Shown: positions 4,685 to 13,571 of the stretch, one piece after another
How positions within the stretch are numbered: position 1 is the first letter of the stretch
Layout of the letters: the number at the start of each line of letters is the position of its first letter
DNA from: a virus
Direction: 5' to 3' (one strand)
Virus record (IMG/VR): IMGVR_UViG_3300030102_005918
Location: 1-34,294 of that record
DNA length: 34,294 bases
Program-made: the position numbers and the translations under genes
Notes under the pieces: model-generated
What the model was told of the DNA's origin: nothing
Seen by the model: only the letters and a program-made list of their open reading frames with translations
Databases searched by the model: none

Positions 4685-6159
4685 ACGATCTAAGCGGTAT
4701 TCTAGATTACCTTACGGATGAGGAGTTAGAAAAAGTAACCCCCATGTTGGAAAGGTTACAAATTCTTGATAATCGCACAGACAAACAGGACAATTTTATA
4801 AATTTTGTAAAGCATGTTTGGCCTCAGTTTATTGAGGGTAGACATCACAAAATTTACGCACAGAAACTACAAGATGTTGCAGATGGAAAATTAAAACGTC
4901 TTATAATTAATATGCCGCCTAGACATACAAAGTCTGAGTTTGCTAGTTATTTGTTCCCAACTTGGTTGATGGGCAAACGGCCTGATTTGAAAATTATTCA
5001 GGCAACACACACGGCTGAATTAGCCGTTGGTTTTGGTAGGAAAGTTAAAAACTTAATAGATAGTGAGGATTTTAGAGATGTATTCCCTGATGTTAAACTT
5101 GCTTCGGATGCCAAAGCGTCTGGTCGTTGGAGTACTAACAAAGGCGGCGAATATTATGCGGTCGGTGTGGGCGGTGCTTTGGCGGGTCGTGGCGCGGATT
5201 TGGCGATTATTGATGACCCCGTTTCGGAACAAGACGCGCTAAGTGTTACTGCGCTAGATAATATTTACGAATGGTACACTTCTGGGCCACGACAGCGTTT
5301 ACAGCCGGGTGGTTCTATTATTATTGTTATGACACGTTGGAGCATTCGTGATTTAACGGCAAAAGTTTTAGCAAAACAGAGTGAATCTGGCGCAGATCAG
5401 TGGGAAATAGTAGAATTTCCTGCAATTATGCCATCTAATAAACCTTTGTGGCCTGAATTTTGGTCAAAAGACGAATTAGAAGGTGTAAAAGCCTCTATTC
5501 CTGTATCCAAATGGAATGCTCAATACATGCAAAACCCTACTGCAGAAGAGGGTGCGATTATTAAGCGTGAATGGTGGAATATATGGGAAAAAGAAGACCC
5601 ACCCGCGTGTGATTATGTAATTCAATCTTACGATACTGCGTTTAGTAAGAGTGATAGGGCAGATTACAGCGCAATTACTACTTGGGGTGTTTTTCACCAT
5701 GACGAAACTGGTGTTGATAATATAATTTTACTTGATGCAATTAGGGGTAGGTGGGAGTTTCCTGAATTAAAACAGATGGCTCATAATTCATTTAAGGAGT
5801 ATGATCCTGATATGATTTTAATCGAACAAAAAGGTTCTGGTATGCCTTTGACGCAAGAATTAAGGAGAATGGGCATTCCTGTAACACCATTTACACCCGG
5901 AAAAGGTGCGGATAAATTTACTAGAATGCATGCTTGCGCCCCTGTTTTTGAAAGCGAAATGGTGTGGTGCCCTGAAACTAATTTTGCTGATGAAGTTATG
6001 GAAGAATGTGCAGCATTTCCAAATGGTGAACATGATGACTTGGCTGATTCGATGACACAGGCTATACTACGTTTTAGGCAGGGTGGTTTTATTACTACCC
6101 CAAGTGATTACGAAGATGATGATTTAATGCATTCGCGTAGAAGAAAGGAATATTACTGA
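4681..6159 (+). CDS. terL: Terminase large subunit
   Basis: 492 residues, the usual length. This is the DNA-packaging motor: an N-terminal ATPase pumps DNA into the procapsid and a C-terminal RNase H-like nuclease cuts it. The Walker A-type loop is MPPRHTKSE (Met78, Lys84, Ser85); Walker B is LAIIDD with Asp178/Asp179 and the following Glu183. Nuclease acidic residues are Asp318 in QSYDTAF, Glu382 in LIEQKGSG and Asp452/Asp453/Asp456 in HDDLADS. All key residues are present, so the protein should be active. It starts within ATGA of the preceding stop and ends at TGATG with the next gene. The family is clear; whether packaging is headful or site-specific cannot be told here. Confidence 0.97.
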   Translation: MNDLSGILDYLTDEELEKVTPMLERLQILDNRTDKQDNFINFVKHVWPQFIEGRHHKIYAQKLQDVADGKLKRLIINMPPRHTKSEFASYLFPTWLMGKRPDLKIIQATHTAELAVGFGRKVKNLIDSEDFRDVFPDVKLASDAKASGRWSTNKGGEYYAVGVGGALAGRGADLAIIDDPVSEQDALSVTALDNIYEWYTSGPRQRLQPGGSIIIVMTRWSIRDLTAKVLAKQSESGADQWEIVEFPAIMPSNKPLWPEFWSKDELEGVKASIPVSKWNAQYMQNPTAEEGAIIKREWWNIWEKEDPPACDYVIQSYDTAFSKSDRADYSAITTWGVFHHDETGVDNIILLDAIRGRWEFPELKQMAHNSFKEYDPDMILIEQKGSGMPLTQELRRMGIPVTPFTPGKGADKFTRMHACAPVFESEMVWCPETNFADEVMEECAAFPNGEHDDLADSMTQAILRFRQGGFITTPSDYEDDDLMHSRRRKEYY

Positions 6160-6389
6160 TGGCGAAAAAAAAGAAAAAAAGTTTTGTAGAATCTCAGCCT
6201 GAAGGAATGTTGAAAGGCACTTTTTTTGATTACATTCCTGACGCTATGCAGATGAGCAATTATCTTAAACAATTTTTGTCTACAGAAGGAAAAGAAAAAA
6301 AATCAAAAGGCAAAAAAAAGCCCCGTGCTTTTCAAAACGGTGGGGCTGTTATGAAGGGCCGTGGGCCAAAATTTAAAGGACAGTCATAG
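6159..6389 (+). CDS. Small Lys-rich protein with GGAV tail
   Basis: 76 residues, starting in the TGATG that ends the terminase. The N-terminus is MAKKKKKS, a middle part could be helical (MQMSNYLKQFLS), and a second basic tract is followed by FQNGGAVMKGRGPKFKGQS. The end resembles that of the next gene (GGAV, then Gly-rich, then KFxG). The high positive charge suggests nucleic-acid or capsid-interior contact. No enzyme motif. Function unknown; similar short proteins occur near marine phage terminases in my recollection. Confidence 0.75.
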   Translation: MAKKKKKSFVESQPEGMLKGTFFDYIPDAMQMSNYLKQFLSTEGKEKKSKGKKKPRAFQNGGAVMKGRGPKFKGQS

Positions 6390-6398
6390 GAGATAAAA

Positions 6399-6593
6399 AT
6401 GGCATCTAAACCTGATTTTATAGACATAGATGGTGATGGAAATACAACAGAGCCAATGAAAACTGCTGCAAAGCAAAAAAAAGTTGCCAAAAAGAAAAAA
6501 GGTGGCGCAGTTAAAAAAATGGCAAGTGGTGGTGCTGTTTGTCGTGGCGGTGGTGCTGCTATAGCAGGGACAAAGTTCTCAGGGGTTAAATAA
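6399..6593 (+). CDS. Small Lys-rich protein, GGAV/KFSG tail
   Basis: 64 residues with a good ribosome site (AGGAG) nine bases after the previous stop. The head FIDIDGDGNTTEPM contains a Asp-rich DIDGDGN string like the start of an EF-hand calcium loop; the middle is Lys-rich; the end is MASGGAVCRGGG...GTKFSGVK. The shared tail with the preceding gene suggests duplication or a common docking signal. Ends in TAATG with the next ORF. Function unknown. Confidence 0.75.
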   Translation: MASKPDFIDIDGDGNTTEPMKTAAKQKKVAKKKKGGAVKKMASGGAVCRGGGAAIAGTKFSGVK

Positions 6594-6811: not shown

Positions 6812-9260
6812 AAGAGATATGGGAGCAGGTGGTGTACCTGATGTAACAGTTGCCCCAGAGCCACCTGAAGGATCAGATCTTACTAGTGTCTTTTTAGATA
6901 ATTTAGAAGCTAATGCTAACGTTGTTCAATTAGATGATGGTTCTGCTATTGTTGGCGAAATGGAAGAAGAAATTCCTCTAGCCATAGATGCTCCATTTGA
7001 TGCTAATTTAGCAGATTATTTAGGTGAGAGTGAAATTGGTCGCATATCATCTGATATTATGAGCAGCGTTGAGGATGATTTATCTTCTCGTTCAGATTGG
7101 GAAGATACATATACGCGTGGTTTAGAATTTTTAGGCATGCAGTACGAAGAGCGTTCAGAGCCTTTTGAGGGTTCTTCTGGCGTTATTCATCCGTTGTTGG
7201 CTGAATCTGTAACACAGTTTCAAGCGCAAGCTTACCGTGAATTATTACCTGCTACTGGACCTGTTAGAACACAAGTTGTTGGCGCACAAAATGAAATGAT
7301 CGTCAAGCAAGCCGAACGCGTTAAAGATTATATGAATTATATGATTACTTATGAAATGGAAGAATACGATCCTGAGTTAGATCAAATGTTATTTTATCTT
7401 CCTGTCATTGGTTCTACGTTTAAAAAGATTTATTTTGACCCACTAAAACAACGTGCGGTGAGCAAATTTATTCATGCTGAAGATTTAGTTGTTCCATACG
7501 GTGCAACTGATTTAGCTTCTTCTCCACGCATTACACATGTAATTAAAATGGATTCTAATGACGTTCGTAAAATGCAATTAGGTGGATTTTACAGCGATAT
7601 TGAACTTTCTGAGGGATCTATTGATGACGATTCAGTTTCAAGTGAAATACAAGAGGAAATAGACAATATACAAGGCATAAGACCTTCAGGTTCCTCTGAG
7701 GAAATGACTATATATGAGGTTCACACAGATTTAGATATTGAGGGTTTTGAAGATATTGGTGTGGATGGTGAACCTACAGGTTTAAAATTGCCATACATTG
7801 TTACAATTGCAGCCGACAGTAATGACATTTTAGCAATTCGTAGAAATTATGATGAAATGGACCCTACAAAACGCAGAATTAACTATTTTGTGCATTATAA
7901 GTTTTTGCCGGGTTTAGGTTTTTATGGCCTTGGTTTAACACACATGATTGGTGGTTTAGCACAGGCTTCTACATCTATTTTGCGTCAACTCATAGATGCA
8001 GGTACGCTATCTAACTTACCTGCAGGTTTTAAGGCCCGTGGCGCACGTATTCGTGATGAAGAAAGCTCCATTCAGCCCGGAGAGTTTAGAGATATAGATG
8101 TTGCAGGAACCGATATACGCTCTTCCTTAATGCCTTTGCCGTTTAAAGAGCCATCTGGCACCTTATACAATCTTTTGGGCACTCTAGTGGACGCAGGGCG
8201 GCGATTTGCGTCTATGGCAGATATGAAAATAAGTGAAATGGGTGGAGAAACACCTGTTGGCACTACAATGGCTATTATGGAGCGCGGCACAAAAGTTATG
8301 TCTGCAATTCATAAAAGATTACATTATTCTCAAAAAGTAGAATTTAAACTTTTAGAAAAAATCTTTGCCAAAACAATTCAAGCATATCCTTATATGCCAT
8401 CTGTTGAGGCAGGTCCAGAAATTGCAGCGCAAGATTTTAGCGCACAAATTGATGTTCTTCCTGTAAGTGATCCAAACATCTTTTCTATGTCTCAAAGAAT
8501 TACACTGGCTCAAACTGAGTTACAATTAGTTCAATCAAACCCACAAGTGCATGGTGGGCCGCAAGGTTTGTATCAAGCATATAGAAAAATGTATGAGGCT
8601 CTTGGCGTAACAAACATTGATGGTATTTTACCGCCACCCCCACAGCCTCAACCAATGAATCCTGCAAAAGAAAATCAAATGGCGTTAATGGGTTCGCCAT
8701 TACAAGCTTTTGCAGACCAAGATCACAAGGCACACATGGAAGCGCATTTAGCGATTATGTCTACGCCTGTAGTACAAAACAATCCAATGTCTTCTGGTGC
8801 CTTACAGGGGCATATAATGGAGCATATTGGCATGTTGGCAGAACAACAGGCGCAGCAAATGGTTATGGAGCAAGCAGGACCAGAGGTTCAGCAAAATCCA
8901 GATGCAATGCAAATGTTGCAACCTGCAATTCAGCGTCAAGCTGCTATGTTGATAGCAGATATGATTGAAGAATACGCACAAACAGTAGAGCCAATTCAAG
9001 ATGCTCAAGATCCGCTTGTTGGAATTAGACAGCAGGAGTTAGAAATTAAAGCTGCTGATATACAGCGCAAATCAAAAGAATTTGAAGCAAAACAAGAGAT
9101 GGAAATGCAAAAAGAAGCTTCTGATAATATGTTGGAACAAGAAAGATTGCAACTACAGCAAAATGCTTTGGCTGATAAAACCCGTGTTGCAGAAGACCGC
9201 ATTCAAACGCAAAGAGATATTGCGTTTATGAATGCACAAACAAAAAGGAACCCACAATGA
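6801..9260 (+). CDS. Portal protein, P22 gp1-like
   Basis: 819 residues, with an AAAGGAG ribosome site. The portal is the 12-mer ring at one capsid vertex through which terminase packages DNA and to which the tail adaptors bind. After an acidic N-terminal arm (about 1-70) comes the typical podovirus portal core, including SSGVIHPLLAESVTQFQAQA, LPVIGSTFKKIYFDP, GLGFYGLGLTHMIGG and GETPVGTTMAIMERG. From about residue 560 the protein becomes Gln/Met/Ala-rich and helical, as expected for the long C-terminal barrel that projects into the capsid in P22. It is somewhat longer than P22 gp1. It ends by ATGA overlap with a small basic gene. The family call is strong; the subfamily is from memory. Confidence 0.92.
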   Translation: MAIERDMGAGGVPDVTVAPEPPEGSDLTSVFLDNLEANANVVQLDDGSAIVGEMEEEIPLAIDAPFDANLADYLGESEIGRISSDIMSSVEDDLSSRSDWEDTYTRGLEFLGMQYEERSEPFEGSSGVIHPLLAESVTQFQAQAYRELLPATGPVRTQVVGAQNEMIVKQAERVKDYMNYMITYEMEEYDPELDQMLFYLPVIGSTFKKIYFDPLKQRAVSKFIHAEDLVVPYGATDLASSPRITHVIKMDSNDVRKMQLGGFYSDIELSEGSIDDDSVSSEIQEEIDNIQGIRPSGSSEEMTIYEVHTDLDIEGFEDIGVDGEPTGLKLPYIVTIAADSNDILAIRRNYDEMDPTKRRINYFVHYKFLPGLGFYGLGLTHMIGGLAQASTSILRQLIDAGTLSNLPAGFKARGARIRDEESSIQPGEFRDIDVAGTDIRSSLMPLPFKEPSGTLYNLLGTLVDAGRRFASMADMKISEMGGETPVGTTMAIMERGTKVMSAIHKRLHYSQKVEFKLLEKIFAKTIQAYPYMPSVEAGPEIAAQDFSAQIDVLPVSDPNIFSMSQRITLAQTELQLVQSNPQVHGGPQGLYQAYRKMYEALGVTNIDGILPPPPQPQPMNPAKENQMALMGSPLQAFADQDHKAHMEAHLAIMSTPVVQNNPMSSGALQGHIMEHIGMLAEQQAQQMVMEQAGPEVQQNPDAMQMLQPAIQRQAAMLIADMIEEYAQTVEPIQDAQDPLVGIRQQELEIKAADIQRKSKEFEAKQEMEMQKEASDNMLEQERLQLQQNALADKTRVAEDRIQTQRDIAFMNAQTKRNPQ

Positions 9261-9508
9261 CAAGTAGTATCCGTGAAAAACGAATTGCTGTTGAAAAAGA
9301 AAAAAAGATAGCACGAAGAGAAGCAGAAAATGCTCCTGTAATGGTTCGCGCAAGAGATGATAAAGGACATTATGTAAAAGATGACCCAAGCACCCCTCAA
9401 AACGAAGCGTGGGTTGAGGCAAAAAAAGTTGCAGAAAAACCTGCAGCAAAGAAAAAAGCCGCTCCCAAAAAAACAGCAGCCAAAAAAAGTCGCGCTAAAA
9501 AAGTTTAG
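9257..9508 (+). CDS. Small basic protein with histone H1-like tail
   Basis: 83 residues, starting in the ATGA at the portal stop. The N-terminal half is charged and helical (REKRIAVEKEKKIARREAEN), followed by VRARDDKGHYVKDDPSTPQNEAW, which looks like a conserved folded core. The C-terminal 30 residues are Lys/Ala/Pro repeats (AAKKKAAPKKTAAKK) like histone H1 tails, suited to binding DNA. The end of the gene carries the terminator of the opposite-strand gene, so the A-rich Lys codons also serve as its U-tract. A role in packaged-DNA contact is inferred. Confidence 0.75.
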   Translation: MTSSIREKRIAVEKEKKIARREAENAPVMVRARDDKGHYVKDDPSTPQNEAWVEAKKVAEKPAAKKKAAPKKTAAKKSRAKKV

Positions 9509-9522
9509 TAAAATAGCGCGAC
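9482..9522 (-). terminator. Intrinsic terminator of the minus-strand gene
   Basis: A perfect 9-bp inverted repeat, GTCGCGCTA (9489-9497) and TAGCGCGAC (9514-9522), is followed on the minus strand by a run of seven T (9482-9488 read in reverse). On the + strand no T-run follows, so it should stop only leftward transcription. It spans the stop codon of the 9257-9508 gene and ends the 9545-9847 transcript. Confidence 0.85.
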
Positions 9523-9544
9523 CTCAAAGATTTCAGGGTGTGTT

Positions 9545-9847
9545 TTAGTTTCTAACGAAAAAGTGCGTTACTCCACCTTTTAAAAAGGTTTTTCCATTTG
9601 GGTATTCAACGGTCACGTTTTCGTTTTTGCTCTCATGTGCATCTTTTAAACAATCAGAGCAAAGCACAACCCATCTAGATTCTGGCTCACCTTCTTCGCT
9701 TTTATATACCCCTTCAACATTAAACGTTTGAGTTGGTAAACTTCGATGCATCTTAGGACCACCATATTGATTTGGACCTAATTGTTGACACATACCACAA
9801 TAGTCGTGGTTCTCTTCATGGATAATAAAAGTTAATTTGTCAGTCAT
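9545..9847 (-). CDS. Zinc-ribbon-like moron protein
   Basis: 100 residues, the only minus-strand gene. Two CxxC pairs (Cys17/Cys20 in CGMC and Cys63/Cys66 in CSDC), about 42 residues apart, suggest a single zinc-ribbon or treble-clef site; the rest is beta-rich with Trp59 and a KTFLKGGVTHFFV end. The ribosome site AAAGGA precedes the ATG, a sigma70-like promoter lies at 9881-9909 and a terminator at 9482-9522. It is therefore a self-contained unit inserted between portal and co-chaperonin genes, the definition of a phage moron. Morons are often expressed outside the lytic late programme and can alter the host or exclude other phages; its actual role is unknown. Confidence 0.85.
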   Translation of the reverse strand: MTDKLTFIIHEENHDYCGMCQQLGPNQYGGPKMHRSLPTQTFNVEGVYKSEEGEPESRWVVLCSDCLKDAHESKNENVTVEYPNGKTFLKGGVTHFFVRN

Positions 9848-9880
9848 TTTTGTTTTCCTTTATGTGTTACTAATAGTAGT

Positions 9881-9909
9881 ACTTTACCACACAAAGTAGC
9901 ATAAGTCAA
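9881..9909 (-). promoter_or_regulatory. Sigma70-like promoter of the moron gene
   Basis: Read on the minus strand: TTGACT (9904-9909), a 17-base spacer, then TAAAGT (9881-9886), 5/6 and 4/6 matches to consensus. It lies about 35 bases upstream of the gene start. The spacer holds copy 2 of the shared 16-bp motif. Confidence 0.6.
9889..9904 (+). repeat. Copy 2 of a promoter-associated 16-bp motif
   Basis: ACACAAAGTAGCATAA, 14/16 identical to 555-570, lying between the -35 and -10 of the minus-strand promoter. A weaker partial copy (ACAAAGTGCTA, 9933-9943) sits just before the + strand promoter at 9951. Possible shared operator; inferred. Confidence 0.4.
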
Positions 9910-9950
9910 TATAAATAAAGAAAAAAATTCTTACAAAGTGCTATTTGTTC

Positions 9951-9978
9951 TTGTCTTTCGTTGAAAGTTCGATAGATT
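9951..9978 (+). promoter_or_regulatory. Candidate promoter for the capsid operon
   Basis: TTGTCT (9951-9956), a 16-base spacer and TAGATT (9973-9978), each 4/6 to sigma70 consensus, 17 bases before the start at 9996. It is divergent from the moron promoter and would restart rightward transcription after the inserted gene. Weaker than the two other promoters listed. Confidence 0.4.
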
Positions 9979-9995
9979 CTGGGTGGGAGTAAGGC

Positions 9996-10193
9996 ATGGA
10001 CGCAACAAATTTAGCAGAACACCTTTACAGGAAGATTCGTCAAAGAAGAGATGATCTTCAAGTATCGTTAGGGACCGGGAATATTGGATCATTTGATGAG
10101 TACAGATATGCGGTGGGGCAGGTTAAAGGATTAACGTTTGTGGAAGAAGAATTAAGAGCAGCAATGAAACATATTGAGTTAGAAGATGAATAA
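9996..10193 (+). CDS. Small hypothetical protein
   Basis: 65 residues, ribosome site GGGAG about seven bases upstream of the ATG. It is mostly helical and charged (NLAEHLYRKIRQRRDDLQVS, then EYRYAVGQVKGLTFVEEELR), ending in an acidic helix. Short helical proteins with a 'VGQVKGL' core are common between portal and capsid genes of phages and may be assembly helpers; I do not recognise a defined family. It overlaps the following co-chaperonin gene by eight bases, so the two are coupled. Confidence 0.75.
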   Translation: MDATNLAEHLYRKIRQRRDDLQVSLGTGNIGSFDEYRYAVGQVKGLTFVEEELRAAMKHIELEDE

Positions 10194-10629
10194 AAAATTA
10201 TACGTTCCAAATCCAAAAGCAATTAAAGCTGCATTTGGAAAAGACAAAGAAGAAAGTAAAAATGAGAATGATCCTTCTCAAATGGAATCTTCAGCGTTAG
10301 AGCGATTACCTCAGCCCACAGGTTATCGAATGCTTATTATTCCATATTATCCAAGTGAAAAAACAAAGGGTGGTGTATACGTTCCAGACCAAGTTAGGGA
10401 TCGTGAGGCTTTTGCAACTGTAGCAGCTTATGTTGTTAAATTAGGTCCAGATGCATACCAAGACTCACAGAAGTTCCCAACTGGTCCTTGGTGTTCCGAG
10501 AAAGACTGGGTACTTATAGGACGTTATGCGGGAAATAGGTTCAAAGTAGAGGGTTTAGAGGTAAGAATCATTAATGATGACAATATTATCGCAACAATCC
10601 TTGACCCAAAAGATATTTCGTATGTATAA
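10186..10629 (+). CDS. GroES-like co-chaperonin
   Basis: 147 residues: an N-terminal extension of about 44 charged residues, then a Cpn10-like fold. Residues 45-56 (TGYRMLIIPYYP) match the first GroES strand, EKTKGGVYVPD (58-68) the KT-x-GG segment before the mobile loop, TVAAYVVKLGPDAY (78-91) the strand plus G-x-G-like turn, and EKDWVLIGRYAG (105-116) with VRIINDDNIIATI (126-138) the last strands. GroES caps GroEL; phage versions such as T4 gp31 let GroEL fold the capsid protein. Its position two genes before scaffold and capsid supports that role. The mobile loop is altered from bacterial GroES, as expected for a viral form. Confidence 0.85.
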   Translation: MNKKLYVPNPKAIKAAFGKDKEESKNENDPSQMESSALERLPQPTGYRMLIIPYYPSEKTKGGVYVPDQVRDREAFATVAAYVVKLGPDAYQDSQKFPTGPWCSEKDWVLIGRYAGNRFKVEGLEVRIINDDNIIATILDPKDISYV

Positions 10630-13542: not shown

Positions 13543-13571
13543 GGGGCGGCTTCGGTTGCCCCTTTCTTTTT
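13543..13571 (+). terminator. Intrinsic terminator with UUCG tetraloop
   Basis: The segment 13543-13562 folds as GGGGCGGC - TTCG loop - GTTGCCCC: six standard pairs plus two G-U pairs closed by the very stable C(UUCG)G tetraloop, followed by TTTCTTTTT. It ends or attenuates transcription after the capsid gene. Downstream, an AT-rich TATTATAAAG (13585-13594) could be the -10 of a new promoter and a small hairpin CAGTT(13605-13609)/AACTG(13619-13623) precedes the next ribosome site; neither is strong. Confidence 0.88.

Follow-up and report, generated by a model that had tools for sequence, protein, structure and literature searches.

The window, the whole 34,294-base stretch of a virus record that was analysed here, groups by its capsid and portal with the HTVC023P-type podoviruses; its capsid protein is 73% identical to that of DSL-LC04 and 70% identical to that of Pelagibacter phage HTVC023P. 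Between the portal gene and a GroES-type co-chaperonin gene lies an open frame that encodes 100 amino acids from an ATG start, with cysteines at positions 17, 20, 63 and 66, and all genes neighbouring it run in the opposite direction. This gene is called the cargo below, and the interval that holds it the slot; sites with a minus-strand gene in the slot are called loaded, and those with no gene in it empty. The features are as follows.

9257–9508, plus strand: Lys-rich 83-aa gene after the portal gene, the upstream flank; conserved in relatives
9381–9548, plus strand: overlapping +1-frame ORF with the conserved tail KKFSKIARPQRFQGVF, which runs to the cargo stop codon and forms the left border of the slot
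9482–9523, minus strand: predicted intrinsic terminator of the cargo gene (fold z −4.0; compensatory change against the loaded site L111; 4/4 loaded vs. 0/49 empty sites)
9545–9847, minus strand: cargo gene, a CxxC...CxxC protein (open frame; 25 IMG/VR homologs, none at this site)
9857–9861, minus strand: putative ribosome binding site AAAGG, 9 nt from the cargo ATG (sequence)
9881–9909, minus strand: promoter-like site TTGACT-17-TAAAGT with a TG element, the presumed start of the cargo transcript; recurs at loaded sites
9951–9978, plus strand: forward promoter-like element TTGTCT-16-TAGATT of the GroES/capsid block, right border of the slot (by consensus inspection only)
9996–10193, plus strand: 65-aa gene preceding the co-chaperonin gene, the downstream flank
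10186–10629, plus strand: GroES-type co-chaperonin gene (Pfam Cpn10, 8e-9; PHROG 3188)

Morons usually, though not necessarily, differ from their neighbours in base composition. A foreign composition of the cargo was sought in G+C and GC3, against its neighbours and the window, and was not found: the gene has 37.0% G+C, compared to 38.7% for the window, and a GC3 of 28.7 compared to 24–30, like its neighbours. A search of Rfam with 9200–10250 gave no match.

Borders of the slot

In empty relatives the forward element of about 9951–9978 keeps its position, and its conserved form there reads CTTGTNTTTCCC-N-GTATAAAGT, with TAGTGGGAG after it. Its position before the 65-aa/GroES/capsid block suggests an independent capsid operon, and two operons probably meet in the portal–GroES interval. 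Directly 3′ of the capsid gene, in a gap of 140 nt, the plus strand has a strong terminator-like hairpin in forward direction, GGGGCGGCTTCGGTTGCCCC-TTTCTTTTT, at 13543–13562.

On the left side, the end of the +1-frame ORF, RFSSIARPQRFQGVF, extends beyond the stop of the Lys-rich gene and is conserved in 43 distinct forms. Changes at the three codon positions of this ORF numbered 89/65/159, an excess at the third position in a count that is biased, as the motif search fixes some residues. Among relatives the ORF lies, for example, at L019:3232–3540, and in some lineages it is a protein of 101–112 residues with a start like MPLKKGTS or MPLAKGKS. It may be either a separately started overlapping gene or the product of slippage at the A7–A8 runs just before the stop. 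Two more small Lys-rich proteins, encoded on the plus strand at 6159–6389 and 6399–6593, end in similar GGAV..G..F.G tails, and a C-terminal tail of this kind is a shared motif in these phages.

Occupancy and predicted signals of the slot

The portal–GroES interval was empty in 52 of 77 distinct IMG/VR sequences, and only four loaded sites are known. A search for more, with the conserved DNA pattern of the forward element and with the 65-aa protein, found none. The distance from the tail to the 65-aa gene is 62–63 nt in nearly all empty sites and 52 nt in two distant ones; it is 447 nt in the window, 383 in L111, 525 in L101 and 228 in L019. The last three hold minus-strand ORFs of 78, 128 and 44 amino acids, respectively, which are mutually unrelated in sequence. 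A tree of the 65-aa gene and GroES spreads the loaded sites over three places, and L101 is nested among near-identical empty sites; its 65-aa protein is 100% identical to that of one of these, L104. Comparison of these loci has shown a slot that is usually empty; in a minority of the phages it is filled by a single small gene on the minus strand, flanked by a promoter-like element and a strong predicted terminator.

The CxxC gene itself occupied this site in none of about 108 IMG/VR loci with both flanks, a number that includes some pieces of the same contig, and it was absent from the whole of 11 larger records of site relatives (four of 55–60 kb). Only plus-strand genes occupy the interval in the isolates HTVC023P, HTVC027P and DSL-LC04. 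The earlier note had proposed a moron on the layout of the locus, a single minus-strand gene with its own signals between portal and co-chaperonin, and had called for a comparison of presence and absence in related genomes. The gene, the predicted terminator, the ribosome site and the promoter-like site all lie at the positions given in that note, and the comparison supports the moron layout: the gene is absent from the site in every relative examined, and the interval is empty or otherwise filled.

Other fillings occur in sister groups. In the lineage of L033 (4361–4819), L047 (3372–3824) and L095, from which the +1-frame tail is missing, the interval is filled by a gene on the plus strand that encodes about 150 aa (MADAATVVMKTTILPDEIAKTIEATTTVSP...); the product in L033 and L047 resembles a capsid decoration protein by eye only and has no Pfam match. 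The G001 group (L276:4303–6439; L277:3543–5675) carries a lysis cassette there, consisting of a glycosyl hydrolase 108 endolysin and small membrane proteins. The same interval is thus also a place of gene gain in L276, L033 and L047, but the genes gained there share the plus strand with the late genes and lack the promoter–terminator frame.

The predicted terminator clearly exceeds chance expectation. The arms of its hairpin, in plus-strand letters, are GTCGCGCTA (9489–9497) and TAGCGCGAC (9514–9522), which give a 9-bp stem with a 16-nt loop, followed on the minus strand by a U7 tract supplied by 9482–9488. The tract is the complement of Lys AAA codons in the convergent gene at 9257–9508, and L111, L101 and L019 likewise have a near-perfect stem and a U-tract in the same Lys codons. 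The folding energy of the RNA is −17.8 kcal/mol (z = −4.0), and none of 200 shuffles was as good. Between the window and L111 the stem shows one compensatory change, U-A to C-G. When a strong stem was defined as at least nine pairs, of which at least six are G-C, followed by a U-tract, a threshold set after the data had been seen, it was present on the minus strand at this place in all four loaded sites and in none of 49 distinct empty ones. Such a split would arise by chance about three times in a million if the sites were independent, and as they are related the figure is a guide only. Fold and sequence thus predict a terminator that belongs to the cargo gene itself.

The hairpin could instead be a plus-strand element that aids slippage of the ribosome or RNA polymerase, after the A-run in the Lys-rich gene, into the +1 frame with its tail ARPQRFQGVF. 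The tail is conserved beyond the stop of the Lys-rich gene, A7–A8 runs are common ahead of that stop, and a weaker stem is found at some empty sites (L066 and the L020 group). However, the strong stem is missing from every one of the 49 empty sites that bear the tail, the U-tract abuts the stem on the minus strand only, and in most relatives the tail can be reached from an ATG in its own frame (9381). A plus-strand frameshift stimulator is therefore disfavoured as the purpose of the hairpin, by its presence at 4/4 loaded and 0/49 empty sites, and this explanation is considered unlikely.

With respect to the promoter, matches of this type numbered 32 across the window compared to 28.4 expected in shuffled sequence, which is chance level, and such a match alone proves nothing. 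The site at 9909–9881 on the minus strand, scored with the TG that stands ahead of its −10 element upstream of the cargo ATG, gave a shuffle p of 0.011. Elements of similar sequence occupy the same position in L111 (p 0.0185), L019 (p 0.0045) and, weaker, L101 (p 0.19), and ribosome sites of the AAGG type also precede the cargo ATG in these three. A promoter of the cargo's own is supported as a predicted site. The empty site L066, of 89 nt, retains TTGACTT, a −35 remnant, at the promoter position with the gene absent, and L030 has a shortened remnant, TTTACTT..TATAAT; both look like the scars of a lost cassette.

Probable gene exchange and the CxxC protein

Upstream of the cargo ATG 84 of 102 positions are identical between L111 and the window, and downstream 83 of 99 are, or 82–84%; the coding regions agree at 157 of 225 positions, the level of a shuffled control (149/220). 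As the flanks are alike and the coding regions are at the control level, either one gene replaced another between a retained promoter and terminator, or two different genes came into one shared frame. An assembly chimera, in which the contig had taken up an unrelated fragment, would account for a single contig having this gene at this site, but both flanks, promoter and terminator, have homologous counterparts in L111, an independent contig with a different gene inside, and a chimera is most improbable.

The 25 IMG/VR homologs of the CxxC protein are mostly 42–62% identical to it, and none lies at the window's site. Where the surroundings were read, the homologous genes are in sense orientation within small-gene clusters, and lie shortly upstream of the gene for the terminase small subunit in L004, L014 and L016 (Pfam Terminase_2 in L004 and L016). 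Four carriers of the gene have capsids 73–78% identical to that of the window, and are thus relatives with the gene elsewhere. The cargo of L111 has an 83% homolog in L285, upstream of a probable terminase small subunit gene (a weak Pfam Terminase_2 match), and that of L101 an 89% homolog in L282, in a small-gene cluster adjoining a DUF6378 gene. Both homologs are in sense with the preceding genes and by inspection are followed by a terminator-like hairpin. Since homologs of three of the cargo genes lie in the small-gene clusters of related phages, the slot appears to be filled from those clusters, the genes of which would be early ones, judging by gene content.

These homologs also bear on a regulatory role, in which the gene would be mainly antisense and its promoter would send polymerase against the portal block or away from the promoter of the capsid genes. 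The convergent layout, with stop codons overlapping at 9545–9548, fits such a role. Against it, the predicted terminator would let the transcript reach no further than the final 30 nt of the gene next to it, and the protein family is under clear selection, with invariant cysteines, and is in sense orientation elsewhere. A mainly regulatory function is very improbable.

Cys17, Cys20, Cys63 and Cys66 are invariant in 18 sequences, as are His34 and the loop G-x-K-M-H-R-x-L-P. The conservation of the four cysteines expected in the earlier note was thus found, and zinc binding by this Cys4 protein is likely from its sequence. Two AlphaFold models (pLDDT 74 and 76) agree on a strand, a CxxC knuckle, a loop, a beta hairpin and a helix that begins with the second CxxC; the loop, residues 24–38, is modelled with low confidence. 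Judged by secondary structure, the predicted order of knuckle, beta hairpin and helix would be closer to a treble clef than to a zinc ribbon. The zinc ribbon suggested earlier, a fold whose ligands sit at two beta-hairpin knuckles, is a putative reading: the four candidate ligands are conserved, the models place the second pair where a helix starts, and there is no match to a solved fold. Known Cys4 zinc proteins, both treble clefs and zinc ribbons, likewise have two CxxC pairs, and in the models the second pair of the window protein lies at a helix start; the protein differs from them in the long conserved GxKMHRxLP loop between the pairs and in matching no profile or solved fold.

Searches of Pfam, PHROGs, NCBIfam, PADLOC, PDB sequences, PDB folds (with both models) and viral folds gave no named match, the results otherwise being at chance level. 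The sole viral homolog from these searches was A0A516MFM4, 37% identical and without a name, and tblastn against 50,697 phage records gave no match. One weak match of 19 residues to a bacterial genome was dismissed. An HNH nuclease, considered for the pattern C..C-H-P-C..C, was rejected for want of a profile match, and by eye the expected catalytic pattern is absent. Among Cys4 zinc proteins, the Lar-type anti-restriction proteins offer a lead only.

Lifestyle of the phages and proposed role of the cargo

Morons have been described as single coding regions with their own promoter and terminator, lying between genes that are adjacent in relatives (PMC4378225). The window cassette is likewise a single coding region with a predicted terminator and a promoter-like site, inserted between genes adjacent in relatives. 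It differs in that the window has no sign of a temperate phage and the composition is not foreign, and in that one promoter–terminator frame holds different genes in different genomes. That this region is a moron cassette is highly probable, and that it sits in an exchangeable slot separating the portal block from the GroES/capsid block is, from the compared sequences, probable.

A classical moron of lysogenic conversion would belong to a temperate phage and would protect or help the host when expressed from the prophage. A single antisense gene with its own promoter in a lytic region is a typical prophage accessory locus (PMC7067206; PMC4378225), and some pelagiphages can integrate (PMC9599517). 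However, the integrase family PF00589 was absent from the window and nine relatives (eight of them 50–61 kb) in a search that matched 14/14 control genomes, and the survey of HTVC023P-type genomes (PMC9599517) never uses the word integrase. Lysogenic conversion is thus quite unlikely. The prophage-like setting implied by the earlier moron reading finds no backing in these ten records; because no phage integrase was found in them, expression in a lysogen is unsupported, and early expression during lytic infection is rather the likelier. Small genes at such prophage sites often prove to be anti-phage or other host-interaction factors.

The moron cassette favoured here would work as follows. Transcription of the cargo would begin with infection, within the first minutes and ahead of the late genes, by the host's RNA polymerase and housekeeping sigma factor, and the terminator would halt the transcript before it could run antisense into the portal block; both of these steps are read from the sequence. 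Recombination with the small-gene clusters of related phages may bring genes into the slot, with the shared promoter and terminator sequence providing the homology. Going by the general behaviour of such genes, the product would act on the host or on host defences. By this analogy a role in host takeover or counter-defence is a tentative suggestion, and profile, sequence and PADLOC searches gave no tie of the protein to either. With low confidence, the cargo could be an early protein of this kind built on a Cys4 zinc site in a treble-clef-like order.

The P2/P4 hotspots of temperate phages and satellites, with their tested anti-phage defence genes (PMC9122126), resemble the slot in having different small systems at a fixed locus of related phages or satellites. 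In contrast to the P4 hotspot, which takes genes in either orientation, the genes of the slot are always on the minus strand, with one tiny gene per site, and any defence function of theirs would be putative. What is new is the exchange of genes inside one promoter–terminator frame, and its occurrence in phages without a detected integrase.

It is quite possible, if short of probable, that marine podoviruses without an integrase maintain a dedicated expression slot where two late operons meet, with a minus-strand promoter and terminator that stay fixed and between which single early genes are swapped in from related phages, giving each genome one individually expressed host-interaction gene. 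Such a slot would offer a simple rule for spotting host-interaction genes in unannotated marine phage genomes, and it provides an uncharacterised family of Cys4 proteins as a candidate for testing.
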